Below are positions 47,417 through 60,776 of a stretch of 64,000 bases of DNA, piece by piece. The DNA is from Planctomycetia bacterium (GTDB taxonomy: Bacteria; Planctomycetota; Phycisphaerae; Phycisphaerales; SM1A02). Every line of letters begins with the position of its first letter. Position 1 is the stretch's first letter. Position numbers and translations under genes: made by a program. Location: NCBI GenBank assembly GCA_005776885.1, contig SXOD01000050.1, forward strand, positions 1-64,000. Direction: 5' to 3'. The notes under the pieces were generated by a model. The model was not told the DNA's origin. It was given only the letters and a program-made list of their open reading frames with translations, and ran no database searches.

Positions 47417-49972
47417 ATGTTGAGGCACATCAGACCATCCGGCAGGCGAGCGTTGTGGTTCGTGGCAAGCTGTGCCATGGGCCTGGCGATGTGTGCGGAA
47501 CGCAGTGCCACGGCCGACACGATCACCGTCTGCGCCAGTGGCTGCGACTACAGCGACATCCAGTCGGCCATCAACGCGAGCGCCAACGGCGACGTGATCG
47601 AGATCGCCGAAGGGACCTATGCGCCATCAGCCACGCTCAACACGATGGGCAAGGCGATCACGATTCGCGGGGCGACGAACCCCGACGGCACGCCCGCGAC
47701 TGTGGTTGATGGGCAAGGGCAGTGGCGAGTGTTCCAGATTGATAACGGGGAAGGTCCCGGCACGGTGCTTGAGAACCTGGTGATCACGGGGGGCTACGCC
47801 TCTAGCGGCGGCGGCCTGTACCTCCAGAACTCCAGCCCGACGCTGACAAACTGCACGGTGAGCGGGAACACGGCGACGGGAACCTACGGCCAGGGCGGCG
47901 GCCTGTACCTCTGGAACTCCGGCCCGACGCTGACGAACTGCGAGGTGAGCGGGAACACGGCGACGGGAACCTACGGCCAGGGCGGCGGCCTGTACCTCTG
48001 GAACTCCAGCCCGACTCTGACGAACTGCGAGGTGAGCGGGAACACGGCGACGGGAACCTACGGCCTGGGCGGCGGCCTGTACCTCTACAACTCCAGCCCG
48101 ATGCTGACGAACTGCGAGGTGAGCGGGAACACGGCGACGGGAATCTACGGCAAGGGCGGCGGCCTGTACCTCTCCTACTCCAGCCCAACGCTGACGGACT
48201 GCGTCGTGAGCGGAAACACGGCGACCTTTTCCGGCGGCGGCCTGTACCTCTCCTACTCCAGCCCAACGCTGACGGACTGTGTGCTGTGCGCAAACGAAGC
48301 ACCAACAAGTCCGCAGGTCTTGGTTGATGGGGATAGCACGCTCCAGGGAGAAGGCAACTGCTTCACGGTCTCGTGCGAAGACAGCGACGGTGATGGATGG
48401 CCGGACAAGTGCGGGAGCGTCGGGGATGGGGTGCACGAAGTGCCAAGCGAATACGCAACGATCAAGGAAGCCATCGCGGCGGCGGGTGCCGGGGACGTGG
48501 TGCTGATCGCAGAGGGGACCTACACGCCAGCCACCACGCTCAACACGATGGGGAAGGCGATCACGATCCGCGGGTCGACGAACCCCGACGGCACGCCCGC
48601 TGCGGTGATCGACGGGCAGGGGCAGCGACGGGTCTTCCAAATTGACAACGGCGAGGGTCCCGGGACGGTCTTGGAGAACCTGGTGATCACGGGGGGCTAT
48701 GCCGAGCACGGCGGCGGACTGCACCTCATCGGTTCCAGCCCGACGCTGACGAACTGCACGGTGAGCGGGAACACGGCGAACGGCCCCAGCGGTGAGGGCG
48801 GCGGACTGCACCTCATCGGCTCCAGCCCGACGCTGACGAACTGCACGGTGAGCGGGAACACGGCGACTTACTTCGGCGGCGGTCTGTACCTCTCCAACTC
48901 CAGCGCGACGCTGGCGGACTGCGAGGTAAGCGGGAACACGGCGACCTCCGGTGGCGGCGGCCTGTACCTCTACCAGTCCAGCCCGACGCTGACGAACTGC
49001 GTCATGAGCGGGAACACGGCGACTGAGTACGGCGGCGGCCTGTCCGTCTACTACCAGTCCAGCCCGACGCTGACGGACTGCACGGTGAGCGGGAACACGG
49101 CGTATCAGAACGGCGGGGGCCTGTCCATCTACTACAACTCCAGCCCGACGCGGACGAACTGCGAAGTGAGCGGGAACACGGCGGACCTCGGCGGCGGCTT
49201 GCTCCTCTACTTCGACTCCAGCGCGACGCTGACGGACTGCGCGGTGAGCGGGAACACGGCGACTGACTCGGGCGGCGGCATGTACCTCTACCAGTCCAGC
49301 CCAACACTGACGAACTGCGAGGTGAGCGGGAACGCGGCGGACTTCGGCGGCGGCTTGCTCCTCTACGCCGACTCCAGCGCGACGCTGACGAACTCCACGG
49401 TGAGTGGGAACATGGCGACTAACGCCGGCGGCGGCCTGCGCCTCGACCAGTCCAGCGCGACGCTGACGGACTGTCTGGTGAGCGAGAACACGGCGAGCCT
49501 CTACGGCGGCGGCCTGTACCTCTCCAACTCCAGCGCGACGCTGGCGAACTGCGAGGTGAGCGGGAACACGGCGACCTCCGGTGGCGGCGGCCTATACCTC
49601 TACCATTCAAACTCGACGCTGACGAACTGCGAGGTGAGCGGGAACACGGCGACCACCGTCGGCGGCGGTCTGTTCCTCTACTCCAACTCCAGCCCGACGG
49701 TCTCGGGCACGGTGGTTTGCAGCAACACCGCGACGTCGTCGCCGCAGGTCTACGGCTCCGGCGGCCTGTGGATCTCGACATGCATCTCCGATGCCTGCGG
49801 CATGTGTCAAGGCGACTTCGATCTGGACGGCGCCATCACAGCGTCCGACCTTGCGTACCTCTTGAGTGTGTGGGGGATGCCCAACCCGCCGGTTGGCGAC
49901 CTAGACGGCAGCGGACAGATCGATGGTGGAGACCTTGCTGCGATCCTCGGCAACTGGGGTCCGCTGCCGTAG
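47417..49972 (+). CDS. Secreted right-handed beta-helix protein with C-terminal dockerin-like repeats
   Basis: An 851-residue exported protein. The N-terminus (RHIRPSGRRALWFVASCAMGLAMCAE) is a long signal sequence. Two modules open with EYATIKEAIAAAGAGDVVLI-type sequence and NTMGKAITIRG, then many 22-26 residue coils of the pattern GGGLYLYNSSPTLTNCEVSG, the turn-and-asparagine-ladder repeat of parallel beta-helices (pectate lyase-like fold). The end (DFDLDGAITASDLAYLLSVW and DLDGSGQIDGGDLAAILGNW) is a pair of Ca-binding dockerin-like segments. Surface binding or attachment is an inference; no catalytic residues are recognisable. Its downstream paralogue shares promoter and termini. Confidence 0.82.
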   Translation: MLRHIRPSGRRALWFVASCAMGLAMCAERSATADTITVCASGCDYSDIQSAINASANGDVIEIAEGTYAPSATLNTMGKAITIRGATNPDGTPATVVDGQGQWRVFQIDNGEGPGTVLENLVITGGYASSGGGLYLQNSSPTLTNCTVSGNTATGTYGQGGGLYLWNSGPTLTNCEVSGNTATGTYGQGGGLYLWNSSPTLTNCEVSGNTATGTYGLGGGLYLYNSSPMLTNCEVSGNTATGIYGKGGGLYLSYSSPTLTDCVVSGNTATFSGGGLYLSYSSPTLTDCVLCANEAPTSPQVLVDGDSTLQGEGNCFTVSCEDSDGDGWPDKCGSVGDGVHEVPSEYATIKEAIAAAGAGDVVLIAEGTYTPATTLNTMGKAITIRGSTNPDGTPAAVIDGQGQRRVFQIDNGEGPGTVLENLVITGGYAEHGGGLHLIGSSPTLTNCTVSGNTANGPSGEGGGLHLIGSSPTLTNCTVSGNTATYFGGGLYLSNSSATLADCEVSGNTATSGGGGLYLYQSSPTLTNCVMSGNTATEYGGGLSVYYQSSPTLTDCTVSGNTAYQNGGGLSIYYNSSPTRTNCEVSGNTADLGGGLLLYFDSSATLTDCAVSGNTATDSGGGMYLYQSSPTLTNCEVSGNAADFGGGLLLYADSSATLTNSTVSGNMATNAGGGLRLDQSSATLTDCLVSENTASLYGGGLYLSNSSATLANCEVSGNTATSGGGGLYLYHSNSTLTNCEVSGNTATTVGGGLFLYSNSSPTVSGTVVCSNTATSSPQVYGSGGLWISTCISDACGMCQGDFDLDGAITASDLAYLLSVWGMPNPPVGDLDGSGQIDGGDLAAILGNWGPLP

Positions 49973-50075: not shown

Positions 50076-51902
50076 ATGTTGAGGCACATCAGACCATCCG
50101 GCAGGCGAGCGTTGTGGTTCGTGGCAAGTTGTGCCATGGGCTTGGCGATGTGGGCGGAACGCAGTGCCACGGCCGACACGATCACCGTCTGCGCCAGTGG
50201 CTGCGACTACAGCGACATCCAGTCGGCCATCGACGCGAGCGCCAACGGCGACGTGATCGAGATCGCCGAAGGGACCTATGCGCCATCAGCCACGCTCAAC
50301 ACGATGGGCAAGGCGATCACGATCCGCGGGTCGACGAACCTCGACGGCACGCCGGCAACGGTAATCGATGGGCAGGGCAAGCGGCGAGTGTTCCAGATGA
50401 ACAACGGCGAAGGCCCCGGGACGGTGCTTGAGAACCTGGTGATCACGGGGGGCTACGCCTCTAGCGGCGGCGGGCTGTACCTCGAGAACTCCAGCCCGAC
50501 GCTGACGAACTGCACGGTGAGCGGGAACACGGCGTCTCTCTTCGGCGGCGGCCTGGACCTCTATTACTCCAGCCCGACGCTGACAAACTGCACGGTGAGC
50601 GGGAACACGGCGACCGACGGCGGCGGCCTACTGCTCTGGGGCTCCAGCCCGACGCTGACGGGCTGCCTGCTCTGCGCAAACGCAGCTTCAAGCGGCCCGC
50701 AGGTGCACTTTGTGTTGAACAGCACGCTCTTGGGAGAAGGCAACTGCTTCACGTCCTCCTGCGAGGACAGCGACGGAGACGGATGGCCGGACAAGTGCGG
50801 GAGCATTGGTGACGGGGTGCACGAGGTGCCAGGCGAGTACGCGACGATCGAGGAAGCGATCGCGTCGGCGGGTGCCGGGGACGTGGTGCTGGTCGCAGCG
50901 GGGACCTATGCGCCATCAGCCACGCTCAACACGATGGGCAAGGCGATCACGATCCGCGGGGCGACGAACCCCGACGGCACGCCCGCGACGGTGATCGACG
51001 GGCAGGGGCAGCGAGGGGTCTTCTTGATCGCGAGCGGCGAAGGCCCCGGGACGGTGCTTGAAAACCTGTTGATCACGGGTGGCAATGCCAACTACGGCGG
51101 CGGCGTGTACCTCGCATCCTCCAGCCCGACGCTGACGAACTGCACGGTGAGCGGGAACGCGGCTACCAACAAGGGCGGCGGCCTGTACCTCTATTACTCC
51201 GGCCCGACGCTGACGAACTGCACGGTGAACGGGAACACGGCGACCTCCTCCTCCGGCGGCGGCCTGTTCCTCTATTACTCCAGCCCGACGCTGACGAGCT
51301 GCACGGTGAGCGGGAACATGGCGACTGAGTACGGCGGCGGCGGCCTAGACCTCCTTTACTCCAGCCCGACGCTCACGAACTGCACGGTGAGCGGGAACAC
51401 CGGCTACGGCGGCGGCGGCGGCTTGAGGCTCTGGAGGTCCAACTCAACGCTGACGAACTGCACGGTGAGCGGGAACACGGCGAACTCCAGCGCCTACGGC
51501 GGCGGCGGCCTGTTGCTCCTGGAGTCCAGCCCAGCGCTGACGGGCTGCACGGTGAGCGGGAACGCGGCTACCAACAAGGGCGGCGGCCTGTACCTTGATG
51601 GCGCGACCACGGCGCCGACCGTCCTCGACTCGGTCGTCTGCAGCAACACCGCCGCATCGTCGCCGCAGGTCTACGGCTCCGGCGGCGGTTGGTCAAACAC
51701 GTGCATCTCCGACGATTGCGCATCGTGCCTCCGGTCGCTGGGAGACCTGAATGGCGACTGGATGGTGGATGGCGAAGACCTCTTGATGCTCCTCGCCGCG
51801 TGGGGCGATCCAGGAGCGTGGCAGTCAGACGTGAACGGTGACGGCGAGGTGGATGGGGAGGACCTTGCTGCGATCCTCGGCAACTGGGGACCGCTGCCGT
51901 AG
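50076..51902 (+). CDS. Second secreted beta-helix protein with dockerin-like repeats (tandem paralogue)
   Basis: A 608-residue paralogue of the preceding gene. The first 110 or so residues are nearly identical, and the ladder of GGGLYLYYSSPTLTNCTVSGN units is shorter. It also contains two EYATIEEAIASAGAGDVVLV-type openings. The C-terminus has two dockerin-like segments (DLNGDWMVDGEDLLMLLAAW and DVNGDGEVDGEDLAAILGNW) and ends LGNWGPLP, the same terminus as the first gene. It lies 103 bases downstream. A recent duplication is the natural explanation. Confidence 0.82.
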   Translation: MLRHIRPSGRRALWFVASCAMGLAMWAERSATADTITVCASGCDYSDIQSAIDASANGDVIEIAEGTYAPSATLNTMGKAITIRGSTNLDGTPATVIDGQGKRRVFQMNNGEGPGTVLENLVITGGYASSGGGLYLENSSPTLTNCTVSGNTASLFGGGLDLYYSSPTLTNCTVSGNTATDGGGLLLWGSSPTLTGCLLCANAASSGPQVHFVLNSTLLGEGNCFTSSCEDSDGDGWPDKCGSIGDGVHEVPGEYATIEEAIASAGAGDVVLVAAGTYAPSATLNTMGKAITIRGATNPDGTPATVIDGQGQRGVFLIASGEGPGTVLENLLITGGNANYGGGVYLASSSPTLTNCTVSGNAATNKGGGLYLYYSGPTLTNCTVNGNTATSSSGGGLFLYYSSPTLTSCTVSGNMATEYGGGGLDLLYSSPTLTNCTVSGNTGYGGGGGLRLWRSNSTLTNCTVSGNTANSSAYGGGGLLLLESSPALTGCTVSGNAATNKGGGLYLDGATTAPTVLDSVVCSNTAASSPQVYGSGGGWSNTCISDDCASCLRSLGDLNGDWMVDGEDLLMLLAAWGDPGAWQSDVNGDGEVDGEDLAAILGNWGPLP

Positions 51903-51997: not shown

Positions 51998-53848
51998 ATG
52001 GTCGCCCCCGCCGCCGCTCCCGCACACGCACCCGCCCCAGCCGCCGGCGCGATCAAGATCGTGGTGGCCACGGACTGTGGATCGACCACGACCAAGGCGA
52101 TTCTCATTCAAGAAGTCGATGGCGTGTTCCGGCAGACGCACCGCGGCGAGGCGCCCACCACCGTGGAGGAGCCCTTCGCCGATGTGACCGTTGGCGTGAC
52201 CAACGCGGTGACGGAACTGGAGGAGCTGTCTGGCCGTCGACTGATCAATCCAGACGGCACAATCCTGCGGCGGACCTCGCCGACTGACCCCAACGGCTGC
52301 GACATCTACATCTCCACCTCCAGCGCCGGCGGCGGCCTCCAGATGATGGTGGCGGGGGTCGTGCGCCAGATGACCGCGGAGAGCGCCAAGCGAGCGGCGC
52401 TGGGGGCCGGTGCCATCGTGATGGACACGATTGCCAGCAATGACAAGCGTCGGCCGCACGAGCAGATCCAGCGCATTCGGGAACTTCGCCCCGACATGGT
52501 GCTTCTCTCGGGCGGCACCGACGGCGGTGACACCAAGAAGGTGACGGAGCTGGCCGAGCTCATCGCGCCGGCCAAGCCGCGCCCGCGGTTTGGCGGCGAG
52601 TACTCCATGCCGATCATTTTCGCCGGCAACAAGGACGCGGCGGCGGGCGTTCAAAAGGTCTTCCAGCACGGCGGGTTTGACCTCTCGGTCGTGGACAACC
52701 TGCGGCCGTCGCTGGAGAACGAGAACCTCGGCCCCGCGCGCGACCGCATCCACGATGTGTTCCTGGAGCATGTCATGGCGCACGCGCCCGGCTACGACAA
52801 GCTGATGCGCTGGTCCAACGCGCCGATCATGCCCACGCCTGGTGCCGTGGGCGACATCCTGCAGGCGATCGCGCGCGGCCGAAACATCAACGCGGTCGGC
52901 GTGGACATCGGCGGAGCGACGACAGATGTGTTCAGCGTCTTTGGCCCGCATTTCAACCGGACCGTGAGTGCGAACCTGGGGATGTCGTATTCGATCTCCA
53001 ATGTGTGCGCGGAGGCCGGGATGGCCAACATCCTCCGATGGGTGCATCTGGCCCAGATGGACGAGCGCGAGCTTCGCAATCGCGTCAAGAACAAGATGAT
53101 CCGGCCGACCACGATTCCGCAGTCGCTGGAGGCGCTCATCTTTGAGCAGGCGGTGGCGCGCGAGGCGCTGCGCCTGGCGTATGTCCAGCACCGCGAGTTC
53201 GCCACCAACCTCAAGGGGGTGCAGCAGCAGCGCACCGTCGGCGATACCTTTGCGCAGAAGCAGGGGGGATCGTCGATCGTCGACAACATGGCGCTGGACC
53301 TGCTGGTCGCGTCCGGCGGCGTCCTCAGCCACGCGCCGCGCATGGAGCAGACGGCGATGATGCTGGTGGATGCCTTTGAACCCGAGGGATTCACGGAACT
53401 GGCCAAGGACTCGATCTTCATGATGCCGCACCTTGGCGTGCTGGCCAGCGTCCACGGGCGCGCAGCGATGGAAGTCTTCGAGCGCGATTGCCTCATCTAC
53501 CTGGGCACTTGCATCGCGCCCGCGGGCACGGCGGTGTGGGGCAAGCCGGTGGCGAGGTACACGATCGACGGGGTTGATGCGGGAACCGCCCAGGGCACGC
53601 TGCTCGGCGGCGAGATGAAGCGATTCGCGATGGCGGGCGACAAGCGCGCGCGCGCGGAAATCGTGCCCGAGAAGGGCTTTGATGTGGGGGCGGGGCCGGG
53701 CAAGGCGGTCACTCGCGAGATCCGCGGCGGCACGGTGGGGCTCATCCTGGACGGTCGGGGTCGGCCACTCGTGTTGCCATCGACCCGGGACGAGTGTCGC
53801 CGGTCGATGGACTCGTGGGTCAAGGCACTGGACCTCTATCCCGGCTAG
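51998..53848 (+). CDS. ASKHA-fold ATPase of the GlmL/MutL (glutamate mutase activator-like) family
   Basis: A 616-residue soluble protein of the actin/Hsp70/sugar-kinase (ASKHA) superfamily resembling GlmL/MutL. After an Ala/Pro-rich lead, phosphate-1 is DCGSTTTK (26-33); phosphate-2 is VDIGGATTDVF starting at D303; the adenosine motif is VASGGVLSHAP (437-447). The lead and the C-terminus (LDGRGRPLVLPSTRDECRRS) are normal. No glutamate mutase (glmS/glmE) or B12 genes are present. It is the first of six tightly spaced genes, so the likely role is to power assembly or reactivation of the membrane complex encoded downstream; that is an inference. ATG 51998 is chosen over TTG 51986. Confidence 0.8.
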   Translation: MVAPAAAPAHAPAPAAGAIKIVVATDCGSTTTKAILIQEVDGVFRQTHRGEAPTTVEEPFADVTVGVTNAVTELEELSGRRLINPDGTILRRTSPTDPNGCDIYISTSSAGGGLQMMVAGVVRQMTAESAKRAALGAGAIVMDTIASNDKRRPHEQIQRIRELRPDMVLLSGGTDGGDTKKVTELAELIAPAKPRPRFGGEYSMPIIFAGNKDAAAGVQKVFQHGGFDLSVVDNLRPSLENENLGPARDRIHDVFLEHVMAHAPGYDKLMRWSNAPIMPTPGAVGDILQAIARGRNINAVGVDIGGATTDVFSVFGPHFNRTVSANLGMSYSISNVCAEAGMANILRWVHLAQMDERELRNRVKNKMIRPTTIPQSLEALIFEQAVAREALRLAYVQHREFATNLKGVQQQRTVGDTFAQKQGGSSIVDNMALDLLVASGGVLSHAPRMEQTAMMLVDAFEPEGFTELAKDSIFMMPHLGVLASVHGRAAMEVFERDCLIYLGTCIAPAGTAVWGKPVARYTIDGVDAGTAQGTLLGGEMKRFAMAGDKRARAEIVPEKGFDVGAGPGKAVTREIRGGTVGLILDGRGRPLVLPSTRDECRRSMDSWVKALDLYPG

Positions 53849-53860
53849 GCTCACCCGCTC

Positions 53861-55015
53861 GTGGCAAAGGCCTACACACCAGGACTGAAGGTCGCTGCCC
53901 ACGGCACCTACCGATCGCGCCGATTGCTGCCGATTAAGGGCGAGGTGCTGGTGAAGGCGGGGGATCGAGTCACGCCATCCACGCCGGTTGCTCGCACCTA
54001 TTTGGAGGGCGAGGCCACTCCGATGAAGCTGGCCAACTTGCTCGGGGCGCAGCCGCGAGAGCTGCCATCGCTCATGCTCAAGCCCGTGGGCTCGCGCGTT
54101 GCGGTGGGCGAGCCGATCGCCCGAAGCAAGGGCATCTTCGGGATGATGAAGACCGAGGTGAAGTCCGCCGCTGAAGGGACCATCGAGAGCGTCTCCGAGA
54201 CGACCGGCATGGCCATCATTCGCGGCGAGCCGATCCCCGTGCAGGTGGACGGGTACATCGCGGGCTCAGTCGTCGAAGTGATCGATGGCGAGGGCGTGGT
54301 CGTCGAAGCCCAGGCTGCGGTGGTGCAGGGGATCTTCGGCGTGTCGGGCGAGGCGTCGGGACCGATCAAGGTTGTCTGCGCGGCTCCCACCGAAGTCTGC
54401 GACACGGACCACATCGATGCCTCATGCCAGGGATGCGTCGTGGTGGGCGGTGCGCGAATGACCGCAGCGGCCATCAAGAAGGCGAAGGACATGGGCGCCG
54501 CCGCATTGGTGTCGGGAGGTCTTGACGATTCCGACCTGCGCGATTTCCTCGGCTACGACCTGGGTGTGGCGATCACCGGGACCGAGAAGACCGGGCTCAC
54601 CGTCATCGTCACCGAAGGCTTTGGCGACATCGCGATGGCGGATCGGACCTACCACCTGCTCAAGGGACTGGAAGGCCGGCTCGCCAGCGTCAACGGCGCA
54701 ACGCAGATTCGTGCCGGCGTGATGCGCCCGGAAATCGTGGTGCCGCTGGATGCCGCAGGCGTCGCTGCGGCGAAGGCGGCGGTGGCTGCTCGCCTGGCGG
54801 CATCGGTCGCGCACGAAGAAGGCTCGCTGGAGATCGGTGTTCAGGTCCGCATCATCAGAGATCCGCACTTTGGCGTCATCGGCACCGTCGCCGCGCTTCC
54901 CGAGGCTCCCGCCGTGCTGGGCTCCGGCTCCAAGGCACGCGTCCTGGATGTCAAGCTGCAGGATGGCTCAGTCGTTACGATTCCACGCGCCAATGTGGAG
55001 CTCATCGAAGGCTGA
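53861..55015 (+). CDS. Barrel-sandwich/lipoyl-like protein with KOW-type C-terminus, part of the six-gene operon
   Basis: A 384-residue soluble protein; exact family not recognised. Residues 1-160 contain barrel-sandwich (RnfC/biotinyl-like) segments: LLPIKGEVLVKAGDRVTPST and LKPVGSRVAVGEPIARSKG, then VKSAAEGTIESVSETTG. Residues 173-192 carry four cysteines (C173, C180, C189, C192) with a CxxC that could bind a metal. The C-terminus (IIRDPHFGVIGTVAALPEAP, then VVTIPRANVELIEG) is KOW-like. GTG 53861 is 12 bases after the ATPase. It probably bridges the ATPase and the membrane subunits, as an inference. Confidence 0.62.
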   Translation: MAKAYTPGLKVAAHGTYRSRRLLPIKGEVLVKAGDRVTPSTPVARTYLEGEATPMKLANLLGAQPRELPSLMLKPVGSRVAVGEPIARSKGIFGMMKTEVKSAAEGTIESVSETTGMAIIRGEPIPVQVDGYIAGSVVEVIDGEGVVVEAQAAVVQGIFGVSGEASGPIKVVCAAPTEVCDTDHIDASCQGCVVVGGARMTAAAIKKAKDMGAAALVSGGLDDSDLRDFLGYDLGVAITGTEKTGLTVIVTEGFGDIAMADRTYHLLKGLEGRLASVNGATQIRAGVMRPEIVVPLDAAGVAAAKAAVAARLAASVAHEEGSLEIGVQVRIIRDPHFGVIGTVAALPEAPAVLGSGSKARVLDVKLQDGSVVTIPRANVELIEG

Positions 55016-55018
55016 ACC

Positions 55019-55882
55019 ATGACCAGTGCCACGGCATCCATCATGGTTTCGATCTTGGGCATGGCGGACGAAGCGTCCGCCGAGAGTTTCTTCGTCTCCG
55101 GCCGTGGCGCGCTCTTTGGATGGCTGGCGATCATCAGCGTGTTCGTGCTGGTGTCGATCGTGATGGCGCGGGGTGGCAAGGTCTTCAAGGTGCGGCCGAT
55201 CGCCGGCCTTTCCGCGGTGGATGAGGCCGTGGGCCGCGCCACCGAGATGGGTCGACCCGTCCTCTTCATCCCCGGCATCCAGGACATGGACAACGTCCAG
55301 ACGATTGCCGGCCTGACGATCCTCTCTCGGGTGGGCAAGACGACCGCCGACTACGACGCGCAGATTGAAGTCCCCGTGAGCCGTTCGCTGGTGATGACCG
55401 CCGGGCGCGAGGCGCTTGGTGCGTCATTTCTTGCCGCGGGACGCCCTGACTCATTCAACGAGGACCAGGTCTATTACGTCACCGACGAGCAGTTTGGCTA
55501 CACCGCCTATGTGTCGGGCTTGATGGTCCGCAAGAAGCCCGCCGCCTGTTTCTACATGGGGCAGTTCTTTGCCGAGAGCCTGATCCTGTCTGAGACGGGC
55601 AACTCCATCGGCGCGATCCAGATCGCGGGAACCGCCGAAACCAGCCAGCTGCCGTTCTTCGTGGCCGCCTGCGACTACACGCTGATCGGCGAGGAGTTCT
55701 TCGCCGCGAGCGCGTACCTGTCGGGTGAGCCTGACCAGATGGGCAGCTTGCGCGGGCAGGACTTGAGCAAGGCGTTGGTCGGCGCGGTGCTGGTGCTGGG
55801 TGTCGTGGCGATGACCGCTGGCGCGCTGGTGGGCGGCCTGGATGGGGTCACCGGGTTCTTCCAATCGTTGGTGGGAGGCTGA
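55019..55882 (+). CDS. Membrane protein of the DUF6754-like family, part of the six-gene operon
   Basis: A 287-residue protein with one N-terminal transmembrane helix (31-50, ALFGWLAIISVFVLVSIVMA), a soluble middle domain (for example GRPVLFIPGIQDMDNVQTIA and VYYVTDEQFGYTAYVSGLMV), and a C-terminal helix (ALVGAVLVLGVVAMTAGALV). I recall that this family, which I would call DUF6754, neighbours GlmL-like ATPases in other phyla; that is from memory. Its ATG is three bases after the previous stop. Probably a core component; function unknown. Confidence 0.6.
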   Translation: MTSATASIMVSILGMADEASAESFFVSGRGALFGWLAIISVFVLVSIVMARGGKVFKVRPIAGLSAVDEAVGRATEMGRPVLFIPGIQDMDNVQTIAGLTILSRVGKTTADYDAQIEVPVSRSLVMTAGREALGASFLAAGRPDSFNEDQVYYVTDEQFGYTAYVSGLMVRKKPAACFYMGQFFAESLILSETGNSIGAIQIAGTAETSQLPFFVAACDYTLIGEEFFAASAYLSGEPDQMGSLRGQDLSKALVGAVLVLGVVAMTAGALVGGLDGVTGFFQSLVGG

Positions 55883-55885
55883 CGC

Positions 55886-56587
55886 ATGAGCAGGCAGCTG
55901 GCCATCATCGTCACGCTTGTCGCCGGTGTCCTCATGGTCGTCTCCGGCTTCATCAAGCCGACGGAGGGGTGGGGCGAGGATGTGGCGGAATGGTTCAACA
56001 TCCTGGCGGCGATCGCGTTCGTGCTTGGTGCCGCCAACATCGCCAAGGTGCATCTCTCCAAGATCTCGGCGCGCGACGCCGGGTGGGGCTTCTCGGCCAT
56101 CACGCTGCTGGCGTTTGCCGTGACCTTTGCCGTGGGCATCATGAAGGTCGGCGTCAACCCGATGCCGGCGTTCCCCAATGTCGCGATGAGCGGCGAGAAG
56201 GACGCGGGGGGAAGCGCCTTCTGGTGGGTCTACACCTACGTGATGTCGCCCATCACGGCGACGATGTTCTCGCTCCTCGCGTTCTATGTGGCCAGCGCCG
56301 CGTTCAGGGCCTTCCGTGCCAAGAACACCGAGGCCACGCTCTTGTTGGTCGCTGCGTTCGTGGTGCTGCTTGGGCGCACCTTTGCCGGCGTGGTGCTGAC
56401 CGGGTGGATCCCGGCTGACAGCGACTGGGCGTTCCTGCGCTTTGAGAATCTCTCAACGACGATCTTCGAGGTCTTTGCCAGCGCCGGCAACCGGGCGATC
56501 ATCATCGGGATCGCGCTGGGCGTCGCGGCCACCAGCCTCAAGATCATCCTGGGCATTGATCGCTCCTACATGGGGTCGGGAGACTGA
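55886..56587 (+). CDS. Six-helix membrane protein, part of the six-gene operon
   Basis: A 233-residue integral membrane protein with about six hydrophobic segments (from LAIIVTLVAGVLMVVSGFI to AIIIGIALGVAATSLKIILG). Loops include GFIKPTEGWGEDVAEWFN and GVNPMPAFPNVAMSGEKDAG. Not recognised. It starts three bases after the previous stop and ends two before the next gene, so the four membrane genes are almost certainly co-translated in order. Confidence 0.6.
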   Translation: MSRQLAIIVTLVAGVLMVVSGFIKPTEGWGEDVAEWFNILAAIAFVLGAANIAKVHLSKISARDAGWGFSAITLLAFAVTFAVGIMKVGVNPMPAFPNVAMSGEKDAGGSAFWWVYTYVMSPITATMFSLLAFYVASAAFRAFRAKNTEATLLLVAAFVVLLGRTFAGVVLTGWIPADSDWAFLRFENLSTTIFEVFASAGNRAIIIGIALGVAATSLKIILGIDRSYMGSGD

Positions 56588-56589
56588 TC

Positions 56590-57513
56590 ATGTCATTCAT
56601 CGACCGACTGGACGCGATCGACCGCCGCTGGATCTTCGCCATGATGGCGTGCGCGGTTGCCATCCCCATCATCGTGATCGGCATGACTGGCGTTCGGTTC
56701 CCTGAAGTGCCTGGCCCCACGTCGACGGCGGCGTTTGAGGCCATCGAGGCGCTGCCCGATGGCGCGAAGGTTCTCTTCTCCTTCGACTTCGACCCCGCCA
56801 GCGCCGGCGAGCTCCAGCCGATGGCCAATGCGTTCATGCGGCACCTGGGCCAGAAGAAGGCGAAGGTCTACTGCCAGACGCTCTGGGCCCCGGCCCCGCC
56901 GCTCATCGAGGACACCCTCAAGAAGTGCCTGCTCGCGCGGAACCCGGACTTGGTCTACGGCGTTGACTACCTCAACCTGGGCTACCAGGCGGGCAATGAG
57001 GGCGTGATGAAGGTCATCACCACCGACTACAAGCAGTCGTTCCCAACGGACGCGAAGGGGACTCGCACGAGCGAGATCCCGATGATGCAGGGGATCGAGA
57101 ACACCAGTTCCTTTGACCTCATCGTGGTGGTGAGTGCGGGATACCCGGGCTCCAAGGAGTGGGTGCAGTATGTGGTGTCGCCCACGCTGGGGAAGGAGCG
57201 GCCGATCCAGCTGGTCGCCGGAGTCACGGGCGTCTCGGCGCCGCAGTTGGTGCCGTACTTCCCCGTGCAGATGAAGGGAATGCTGGCCGCCATCAAGGGG
57301 GCCGCCGAGTACGAGTTCATGGTCAACGAGGTCATCGAGGCCGCCAATCCAGGAAGACCCTTGCCGCCCGCGTTCATGGAAGCGCAGCGACGCATGGCGC
57401 CGCAGCTCTTTGGCCACCTCCTGATGGTGGGGCTCATCATCGTCGGCAACACGATTTTCTTCCTCAAGCGGAGGCAGTCGCGCCGTGGCGGAACCATGGG
57501 GGCCGCGGCCTGA
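56590..57513 (+). CDS. Membrane-anchored protein with large extracytoplasmic domain, part of the six-gene operon
   Basis: A 307-residue protein. One N-terminal helix (WIFAMMACAVAIPIIVIGM) and one C-terminal helix (LFGHLLMVGLIIVGNTIFFL, then KRRQSRRGG) bracket a domain of about 230 residues, probably outside the membrane. The domain has KVLFSFDFDPASAGELQPMA, PDLVYGVDYLNLGYQAGNEG and SFDLIVVVSAGYPGSKEWVQ, suggesting an alternating alpha/beta (Rossmann- or solute-binding-like) fold. Not recognised. Confidence 0.6.
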   Translation: MSFIDRLDAIDRRWIFAMMACAVAIPIIVIGMTGVRFPEVPGPTSTAAFEAIEALPDGAKVLFSFDFDPASAGELQPMANAFMRHLGQKKAKVYCQTLWAPAPPLIEDTLKKCLLARNPDLVYGVDYLNLGYQAGNEGVMKVITTDYKQSFPTDAKGTRTSEIPMMQGIENTSSFDLIVVVSAGYPGSKEWVQYVVSPTLGKERPIQLVAGVTGVSAPQLVPYFPVQMKGMLAAIKGAAEYEFMVNEVIEAANPGRPLPPAFMEAQRRMAPQLFGHLLMVGLIIVGNTIFFLKRRQSRRGGTMGAAA

Positions 57514-57529
57514 TCGGTCGGGACACACG

Positions 57530-58621
57530 ATGAACCAGAAGCAAACCTGGACAGTCATCTTCGTCGTCGCGGCCGCGCTGCTGACGATCCGGTCGTTCAC
57601 CGGCCCGGGCATGGCGAAGGTCTATGTGGAGGACACGCGTGTGTCGCTCAAGCAGTCGGGCGAGAAGGAAGTAGACGGCGTGATGAAGCCGGTCTATGAG
57701 GCTGTCGCTCCAGGCACCGACGGCGCCATCGAGTGGACCGCCCAGTCACAGGTCCCGCCGCGTGTGTACTACGCCGCAGAGGCTGCCGACCCGAGCCAGA
57801 CGGCGATTCACCTGAGCGCCAGCCGGACGATCGGCGTGTGGGTCGCCGCACTCCTGACCCTCTTCATCTTCAGCTTCCTCTACCGAGACAATCCGTTCTA
57901 CAAGTTTGCGGAAGCGACCATCGTGGGCGTCTCGGCTGCGTACTGGATGGTGGTCGGTTTCTGGGACACGCTGATGCCCAAGCTCTTTGGGAGCCTGGTC
58001 CCGGCGATCGTGACCGCCAACTTCATGCCTGGCCTCGAAGGGAAGTCCGACTACTGGATCCTCGTCCCGGCGGCGCTGGGCATCATGCTGCTGTGCCGGC
58101 TCAACCGTGGCCTCGCGGCGGTGAGCGTCATCCCGCTGGCGTTCATCGTGGGCACGACTTCCGGCCTCAAGTTCGTGAGCTATGTGGAGAGTGACCTCCT
58201 GGCGCAGACCGCCAGCACGATGAAGTCGCTCCTGGTGGCCGCGCCCGCGATCGGCGACCAACCCTCGACAGGCTTTTCGATGGAGCTCTCCATCAAGCAG
58301 GCCTTGCTCTTCATTGGCGTCGTGAGCGGGCTGGTCTACTTCTTCTTCAGCGTCGAGCACAAGGGCGTCGTCGGCAAGACGGCCCGCGTCGGCGTCTGGT
58401 ACCTGATGATCACCTTCGGCGCGGCCTTTGGCTTCACCGTGATGGGCCGCATCGCGCTCTTTGCGGCGCGGTGCGAGTTCCTCTTCGATGACTGGCTCTG
58501 GCTGATCGATCCCACCCAGAATCGAGTGGTCGTGGAGACGGCGGTGGCCAGCGTGAACGCGCTGGTGGGTGCGATGGCTTCCTCGCCGTGGATGCCTGCG
58601 CTGTCAGCGCTCGGATGCTGA
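57530..58621 (+). CDS. Polytopic membrane protein, last gene of the six-gene operon
   Basis: A 363-residue membrane protein. A first helix (TWTVIFVVAAALLTIRSF) is followed by an outside segment of about 80 residues, then about seven more helices (for example TIGVWVAALLTLFIFSFLYR and ALLFIGVVSGLVYFFFSVEH). Not recognised. ATG 57530 is 16 bases after the previous stop; a longer start at 57485 would overlap it. Zwf follows after 20 bases, so it may share this transcript. Confidence 0.6.
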   Translation: MNQKQTWTVIFVVAAALLTIRSFTGPGMAKVYVEDTRVSLKQSGEKEVDGVMKPVYEAVAPGTDGAIEWTAQSQVPPRVYYAAEAADPSQTAIHLSASRTIGVWVAALLTLFIFSFLYRDNPFYKFAEATIVGVSAAYWMVVGFWDTLMPKLFGSLVPAIVTANFMPGLEGKSDYWILVPAALGIMLLCRLNRGLAAVSVIPLAFIVGTTSGLKFVSYVESDLLAQTASTMKSLLVAAPAIGDQPSTGFSMELSIKQALLFIGVVSGLVYFFFSVEHKGVVGKTARVGVWYLMITFGAAFGFTVMGRIALFAARCEFLFDDWLWLIDPTQNRVVVETAVASVNALVGAMASSPWMPALSALGC

Positions 58622-60326: not shown

Positions 60327-60776
60327 TCAGGACACCTTGGAGCCGGCGGGAACCGCGGCATCGGGTCGCAGGACAAAGACATCCCGCTCGCCAGCAGCAC
60401 CCGTGATCGCACTGGCCGCCAGGATCATCCCCTGGCTCACTTCGCCGCGGAGAGTCCGTGGCTCCAGGTTGGCCACGATGATGACTTGCGTGCCCACCAG
60501 TTTCTCCGGCGCGTACCACGCCTTGATGCCGGCACAGACTTGTCGACCCCCGGGCGTGCCATCGTCCAGCTTGATCTTGAGGAGCTTGTCCGCATTCGGG
60601 TGAGGCTCAGCGCTCACGATGGTGGCCACGCGCAGGTCCAGCTTCGCGAAGACATCGAAGGGGATGTTCTCCAGGAGCGGGGCTCCCTCAACCACCGGCT
60701 TGGCATCAACCACCGGCTTGGCATCAACCACCGGCTTGGCATCAGCCACCGGCTTGGCATTCACGACGTCGCTCAC
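60327..60776 (-). CDS. Stand-alone tRNA-binding (MetRS C-terminal/Trbp111-like) OB-fold protein
   Basis: A 149-residue protein. Residues 38-149 are the tRNA-binding OB-fold found at the C-terminus of MetRS and in Trbp111 and EMAP II: FAKLDLRVATIVSAEPHPNA, DKLLKIKLD, VCAGIKAWYAPEKLVGTQVI and VANLEPRTLRGEVSQGMILA. The N-terminal tail is a repeat of AKPVVD units from 18-base DNA repeats. The GTG start overlaps the upstream gene's stop (GTGA). It probably binds tRNA as a dimer and may assist a MetRS that lacks this domain, which is an inference. Confidence 0.85.
   Translation of the reverse strand: MSDVVNAKPVADAKPVVDAKPVVDAKPVVEGAPLLENIPFDVFAKLDLRVATIVSAEPHPNADKLLKIKLDDGTPGGRQVCAGIKAWYAPEKLVGTQVIIVANLEPRTLRGEVSQGMILAASAITGAAGERDVFVLRPDAAVPAGSKVS
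60691..60762. repeat. 18-bp tandem repeat coding for the AKPVVD tail
   Basis: Three exact copies of ACCACCGGCTTGGCATCA and a fourth changed one, in frame at the N-terminus of the OB-fold protein. Unit number changes would shorten or lengthen the tail by six residues. Confidence 0.9.

Follow-up and report, generated by a model that had tools for sequence, protein, structure and literature searches.

The window analysed here, that is, the whole stretch of 64,000 nucleotides of Planctomycetia bacterium DNA, carries a group of six genes, designated A to F (Table 1). As described in an earlier, sequence-only reading, they are six same-strand open reading frames spanning positions 51998-58621 and separated by gaps of 12, 3, 3, 2 and 16 bases; these coordinates agreed on re-checking, and the helix counts given in that reading fit those derived from hydropathy. 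The six encoded proteins share 57-79% identity with those of the nearest relative, locus L072, and nucleotide change between the two loci is concentrated in third codon positions in all six genes (for A: 0.20, 0.12 and 0.52 at the three positions). This excess of third-position change, together with the level of protein identity, indicates that all six are real genes. In sequence searches, B, D, E and F gave nothing over threshold in Pfam, B to F gave nothing in NCBIfam, and A to F gave chance-level matches only against solved structures. A role in anti-phage defence was rejected, as the six proteins have no match to PADLOC models, and a plasmid or phage origin was likewise discarded for want of matches.

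Upstream of A, where relatives carry two further genes (G and H, see below), the plus strand encodes two tandem paralogous large repeat proteins (47417-49972 and 50076-51902), probably secreted, with beta-helix-type repeats and dockerin-like C-terminal motifs. A small tRNA-binding-domain protein with an N-terminal KPV-DA repeat, MetG/CsaA-like as judged by eye, is encoded on the minus strand at 60327-60776. Downstream of the operon there is also a glucose-6-phosphate dehydrogenase gene, which is a clade-specific neighbour. In fact, a survey of neighbours for a constant additional enzyme returned clade-specific genes only, namely G6PD/6PGL in the clade of the window, fatty-acid genes in others and PPDK in Zixibacteria. 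Pilin, secretin and division genes are not constant neighbours either.

Table 1. Location of the operon genes, of the partner genes G and H, and of related loci in other genomes.
Feature	Location	Strand	Description	Basis
A	51998..53848	+	MutL/GlmL-fold ASKHA ATPase, C-terminal extension of about 110 aa	Pfam PF13941, conserved phosphate motifs
B	53861..55015	+	soluble three-domain putative adaptor: barrel-sandwich hybrid, swivelling beta/beta/alpha, KOW	model, fold matches, homologue profile matches
C	55019..55882	+	DUF6754, 2 TM, predicted cytosolic Rossmann-like domain	Pfam PF20539, model, fold matches, topology
D	55886..56587	+	integral membrane protein, about 6 TM	hydropathy over alignment
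E	56590..57513	+	2 TM, predicted extracytoplasmic domain of about 200 aa	hydropathy, positive-inside
F	57530..58621	+	integral membrane protein, about 7 TM	hydropathy
G	contig C38, 15946-16428	-
H	contig C38, 16325-16777	-
Long Cloacimonadota C proteins	L216 5196-8120 and 10692-13478; L219 7379-10393
Second A-B system	L154 9274-11748; L155 10309-12816; L203 11843-14824; L204 7731-11006
Second A-B system, further loci	L157, L158, L205

The description of A as a GlmL/MutL-type ATPase with intact motifs holds. A matches the Pfam family MutL (PF13941) with an E-value of 4.2e-129 over positions 1-450, and the phosphate motifs DCGSTTTK and DIGGATTD are at least 98% conserved among operon homologues; this full-length profile match with intact motifs places A in the MutL family of ASKHA ATPases. 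Within NCBIfam, A scores below the cut-off of both the GlmL equivalog (231.9 bits vs 475) and the GlmL family model (162 vs 204). In a tree, GlmL-type proteins are set apart from A by long branches, which also leave the exact root unsure. The mutase epsilon subunit (PF06368) was not found in the source genome (G000), nor over cut-off in the 76 Planctomycetota genomes bearing the membrane gene cassette of C to F (CDEF); it exceeds the cut-off in five of 294 Planctomycetota genomes, all of which have a MutL gene and none the cassette. Glutamate mutase is thus not the constant partner of A, in agreement with the first reading, which had seen no tie to this enzyme. Literature searches on the gene context of GlmL/MutL returned nothing relevant, and the main text of the Planctopirus limnophila essential-gene paper (PMC10632474) names neither a mutase nor MutL. 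On these profile and tree comparisons, A is a MutL-family ATPase of a kind other than GlmL. It is also by far the most conserved part of the system: at 62% identity, 65 sequences of A fall into 5 groups, as compared with 35 groups for 73 sequences of B and 60 groups for 155 sequences of C. Such exceptional conservation is what a shared motor or chaperone would be expected to show.

The predicted structure of B (pLDDT 88.8) combines a barrel-sandwich hybrid with a swivelling domain and, at the C-terminus, a KOW domain. The swivelling domain resembles those of RraA and of PEP-utilising enzymes, with Z-scores of about 8.5-9 that are only moderately above background, and with Foldseek alone neither the model of B nor that of C found a confident match over the whole protein. 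Homologues of B match RnfC_N (26 of 36) and NQRA_N (8 of 36), as well as Biotin_lipoyl and KOW. The emphasis first laid on a CxxC in this protein proved misplaced, with cysteine kept at its two positions in just 7 and 8 of 36 homologues, and a redox role based on this motif was consequently rejected. A biotin- or lipoyl-carrying function was rejected as well, since the acceptor lysine in the hairpin is not conserved; the best candidate, K97, is lysine in 26 of 36 homologues and otherwise R, P, Q or S. One B-like reading (G244:C76:2033-3154) contains an internal stop, possibly through decay or sequencing error.

A and B are adjacent in nearly all loci. Moreover, a paralogous second A-B system occurs with no CDEF nearby in G169, G124, G139, G011, G039 and in Cloacimonadota and Fermentibacteria genomes, either as a single fused protein of 800-1000 aa or as an adjacent pair. 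As far as gene arrangement can tell, this fusion speaks most strongly for physical cooperation of A and B, and the existence of such paralogues away from CDEF suggests that the A-B pair may have a more general role.

The first reading had presented C to F as four unrecognised membrane proteins. That does not apply to C, which belongs to the catalogued Pfam family DUF6754 (PF20539; E 1.8e-114, 381.6 bits against a gathering score of 27), even though the entry is a domain of unknown function and a search of the open-access literature returned no paper naming it. The predicted structure of C (pLDDT 89.6) consists of two transmembrane helices and a Rossmann-like domain, predicted to be cytosolic by charge, with conserved residues just after several strands. 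Its model matches Sir2-like proteins (Z 12.1, rmsd 3.2 over 137 residues), RCK domains (Z 9.6) and transhydrogenase dIII (Z 9.4). The likeness to Sir2-like and DHS-like NAD-binding proteins would be a resemblance of predicted fold only. Many relatives of C carry an additional extracytoplasmic FN3-like N-terminal region, which reaches about 700 aa in Cloacimonadota; ahead of DUF6754, the long proteins of this phylum (930-1005 aa) have a signal peptide and FN3-like repeats, and possibly a coiled coil, and the second of those in L216 lacks a D, E and F of its own. Homologues of D, E and F were found at 74, 70 and 68, respectively, of the best 79 C-bearing loci. Two suspected homologies within the cassette were discarded: the soluble domains of C and E look alike by eye, but their hhalign score of 13.9 does not rise above that of column-shuffled controls (mean 14.8, maximum 22.2), and homology of D with F found no support.

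Iterated profile searches over 40 Planctomycetota regions found the order A-B-C-D-E-F many times, and it is kept in many families of this phylum and in other phyla. The repetition of one gene order in dozens of genomes from several phyla excludes chance. The proposal that the six genes form a conserved unit is therefore upheld, but the unit is incomplete, as two further conserved genes located elsewhere in the genome belong to it. G encodes a protein of about 110-150 aa and lies directly upstream of A in many loci; H, upstream of G, has a transmembrane segment and a PH-like domain (bPH_6, sub-threshold). Both are missing from the window and stand side by side on contig C38 of the source genome, and G is unlinked in several other genomes too. 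A G-like reading with three stops (G217:C1:3083431-3083760) may reflect decay or sequencing error.

The genes also travel together across genomes. Among the 294 Planctomycetota genomes, C is present in 76 and B in 70, with 68 in common (Fisher p 7e-55); C and A share 70 genomes, and G is found in 72 of the 76 with C (p 2e-58), these p-values overstating independence in that they ignore shared ancestry. More useful facts are the small number of exceptions and the persistence of all the genes where linked ones have moved apart. In particular, A, B, C and G are all present in 40 of the 43 near-complete positive Planctomycetota genomes, and A in 15 of 16 genomes checked from other phyla, including those showing only CDEF locally. 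The six genes thus do co-occur in other genomes.

Scanning genome contigs with an alignment of C yielded at least 572 confirmed relatives. The best 79 of these loci are distributed over Planctomycetota, Zixibacteria, Neomarinimicrobiota, Fermentibacteria, Latescibacteria, Eisenbacteria, Gemmatimonadota, Stahlbacteria, Cloacimonadota and entries annotated as Acidobacteria and Deltaproteobacteria; individual records derived from metagenomes may be mislabelled. DUF6754 occurs in 76 of 294 Planctomycetota genomes, in all 60 Zixibacteria (2-6 copies per genome), in 38 of 61 Neomarinimicrobiota and in 57 of 59 Cloacimonadota, and is absent from all 14 well-known control genomes. The culturable planctomycete genera Gimesia and Thalassoglobus are among the matches listed.

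The cassette CDEF is found singly or in tandem pairs or triples, and sometimes far from A-B. In Zixibacteria, cassettes at the first, second and third position group into separate clades across species, which indicates that they are old, diverged types and that one A-B pair probably serves several of them; several genomes hold one A with two or more cassettes (for example, G307). Over 115 cassettes, the pairwise distances measured for C, D, E and F are correlated with one another (0.65-0.87). This correlation of sequence distances fits co-inheritance, although shared species history would also contribute. Variant arrangements were observed as well: a Zixibacteria cassette has two consecutive C genes followed by one D, E and F (L220, 7541-9314), and behind one cassette in Stahlbacteria come genes for a DUF4388 protein and two roadblock-like proteins, as well as ExbB/ExbD/TonB-like genes (L140, 6792-12887).

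Judged by these comparisons, the existence of a conserved, modular, chromosomally inherited system with intact ATPase motifs, an A-B pair and replaceable membrane cassettes is well supported, and the conserved linkage of A with the membrane genes lends support to the original proposal that the ATPase serves a membrane complex. Reactivase- and chaperone-type ASKHA proteins, including MutL/GlmL, use ATP to act as helpers of other proteins. This habit, the sharing of a single A by several cassettes and the exceptional conservation of A lead us to propose, tentatively, an eight-component envelope machine in which A-B would act on CDEF as an ATP-dependent clamp or chaperone, assembling, activating or resetting it. 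Its components would be the ATPase A, the cytosolic adaptor B, the small partners G and H, and the inner-membrane cassette CDEF, open to duplication and diversification. Specifically, A and B would join in a single ATPase unit in the cytosol, with the cytosolic Rossmann-like domain of C as its docking site; binding and hydrolysis of ATP by A would drive the swivelling and KOW domains of B, whose movement would in turn assemble, activate or reset the CDEF complex, and the latter would act at the cytoplasmic membrane, with extracytoplasmic domains in E and in the FN3 region of C. The reactivase or chaperone action assigned to A is borrowed from MutL/GlmL, a group of which A is a distant member only.

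Other readings of the same data have to be weighed against the clamp or chaperone. It is unlikely, though conceivable, that CDEF is an ATP-powered transporter or exporter with A-B as its shared energising unit, in which E and the ectodomain of C would handle an outside substrate, D and F provide the path and C couple to A-B. The roughly 17 transmembrane segments of C, D, E and F, with their extracytoplasmic and cytosolic domains, would suit such a task, and the sharing of one ATPase by several diverged cassettes is reminiscent of an energiser common to several substrate specificities; however, no transporter family is consistently matched by homologues of D, E and F, and we know of no ASKHA ATPase that drives transport. 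Rather improbable is that A works like FtsA or PilM, as the actin-fold scaffold of a membrane machine that builds the envelope, secretes or forms surface structures, and to which G and H would recruit it. The ASKHA fold of A, the below-cut-off PH-like domain of H, the large FN3-type ectodomains of C in Cloacimonadota and the ExbB/ExbD/TonB-like genes beside the Stahlbacteria cassette are consistent with it. Against it, A scores in MutL, FtsA-like matches are sub-threshold and confined to a paralogue of A, and the pilin, secretin and division genes are inconstant neighbours.

We give little credence to a membrane sensor, in which the Rossmann-like domain of C, in the manner of RCK/KTN domains, would bind a ligand of nucleotide type and gate or signal through D and F, with A-B as an ATP switch. 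The fold matches of C and its conserved residues after several strands point in this direction, but Rossmann-like folds are common and reveal no ligand, and the sequence of the first loop of C is without a GxGxxG motif. A derivative of Rnf/Nqr-type ion-translocating oxidoreductases, with B in place of RnfC/NqrA, is very improbable: the RnfC_N and NQRA_N matches of B and a similar mix of soluble, polytopic and membrane-anchored subunits are offset by the failure of D, E and F homologues to match Rnf/Nqr subunits (RnfA/D/E/G or NqrB-F) in Pfam, by the unconserved CxxC and by the swivelling and KOW domains that make up the rest of B. Finally, that A is simply the glutamate mutase (or ornithine aminomutase) accessory protein GlmL, with incidental neighbours, can be dismissed despite the shared Pfam family, in view of its scores below the cut-offs, its deep separation in the tree and the distribution of the mutase epsilon subunit.

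A system nearly universal in the sampled species of two phyla and patchy in others probably does something basic. Given the occurrence of its DUF6754 component in 60/60 Zixibacteria and 57/59 Cloacimonadota, in up to six copies, the system is unlikely to be dispensable there, which points to a core membrane function missing from all the control genomes. On balance, we lean slightly towards an energised envelope machine of an ancient class not previously described, belonging to the core genome of at least two phyla, in which a MutL-fold ATPase and its own three-domain adaptor are permanently paired with exchangeable four-subunit membrane cassettes. If true, MutL-fold ATPases, which are known for helping enzymes, would also have a part in membrane complexes. 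Furthermore, the strict co-occurrence of the genes marks them as clear targets for genetics in planctomycetes that can be cultured, for example Gimesia and Thalassoglobus.

In these searches, no characterised relative emerged for seven of the eight components, and no known system with such a set of parts was found, although an existing kind of machine may be present in disguise. PilM/FtsA-type platforms combine an actin-fold ATPase with membrane partners, as is the case for A, but A belongs to the MutL family and a pilus or division partner is not constant. Rnf and Na+-NQR resemble the system in having an RnfC_N/NqrA_N-like barrel-sandwich domain in a soluble subunit beside several membrane subunits; no membrane subunit in common with it was found, and B is accompanied by an ATPase and lacks a conserved CxxC. 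The MutL/GlmL family (PF13941), which includes GlmL and the GlmL-related ornithine degradation protein, has its ATPase family and nucleotide motifs in common with A, whereas A lies below all NCBIfam GlmL cut-offs, has a longer C-terminus and is accompanied by B, and in most cases by G and CDEF, rather than by the mutase epsilon subunit. Lastly, C is a full-length member of DUF6754, a family whose partners are newly described in this analysis.
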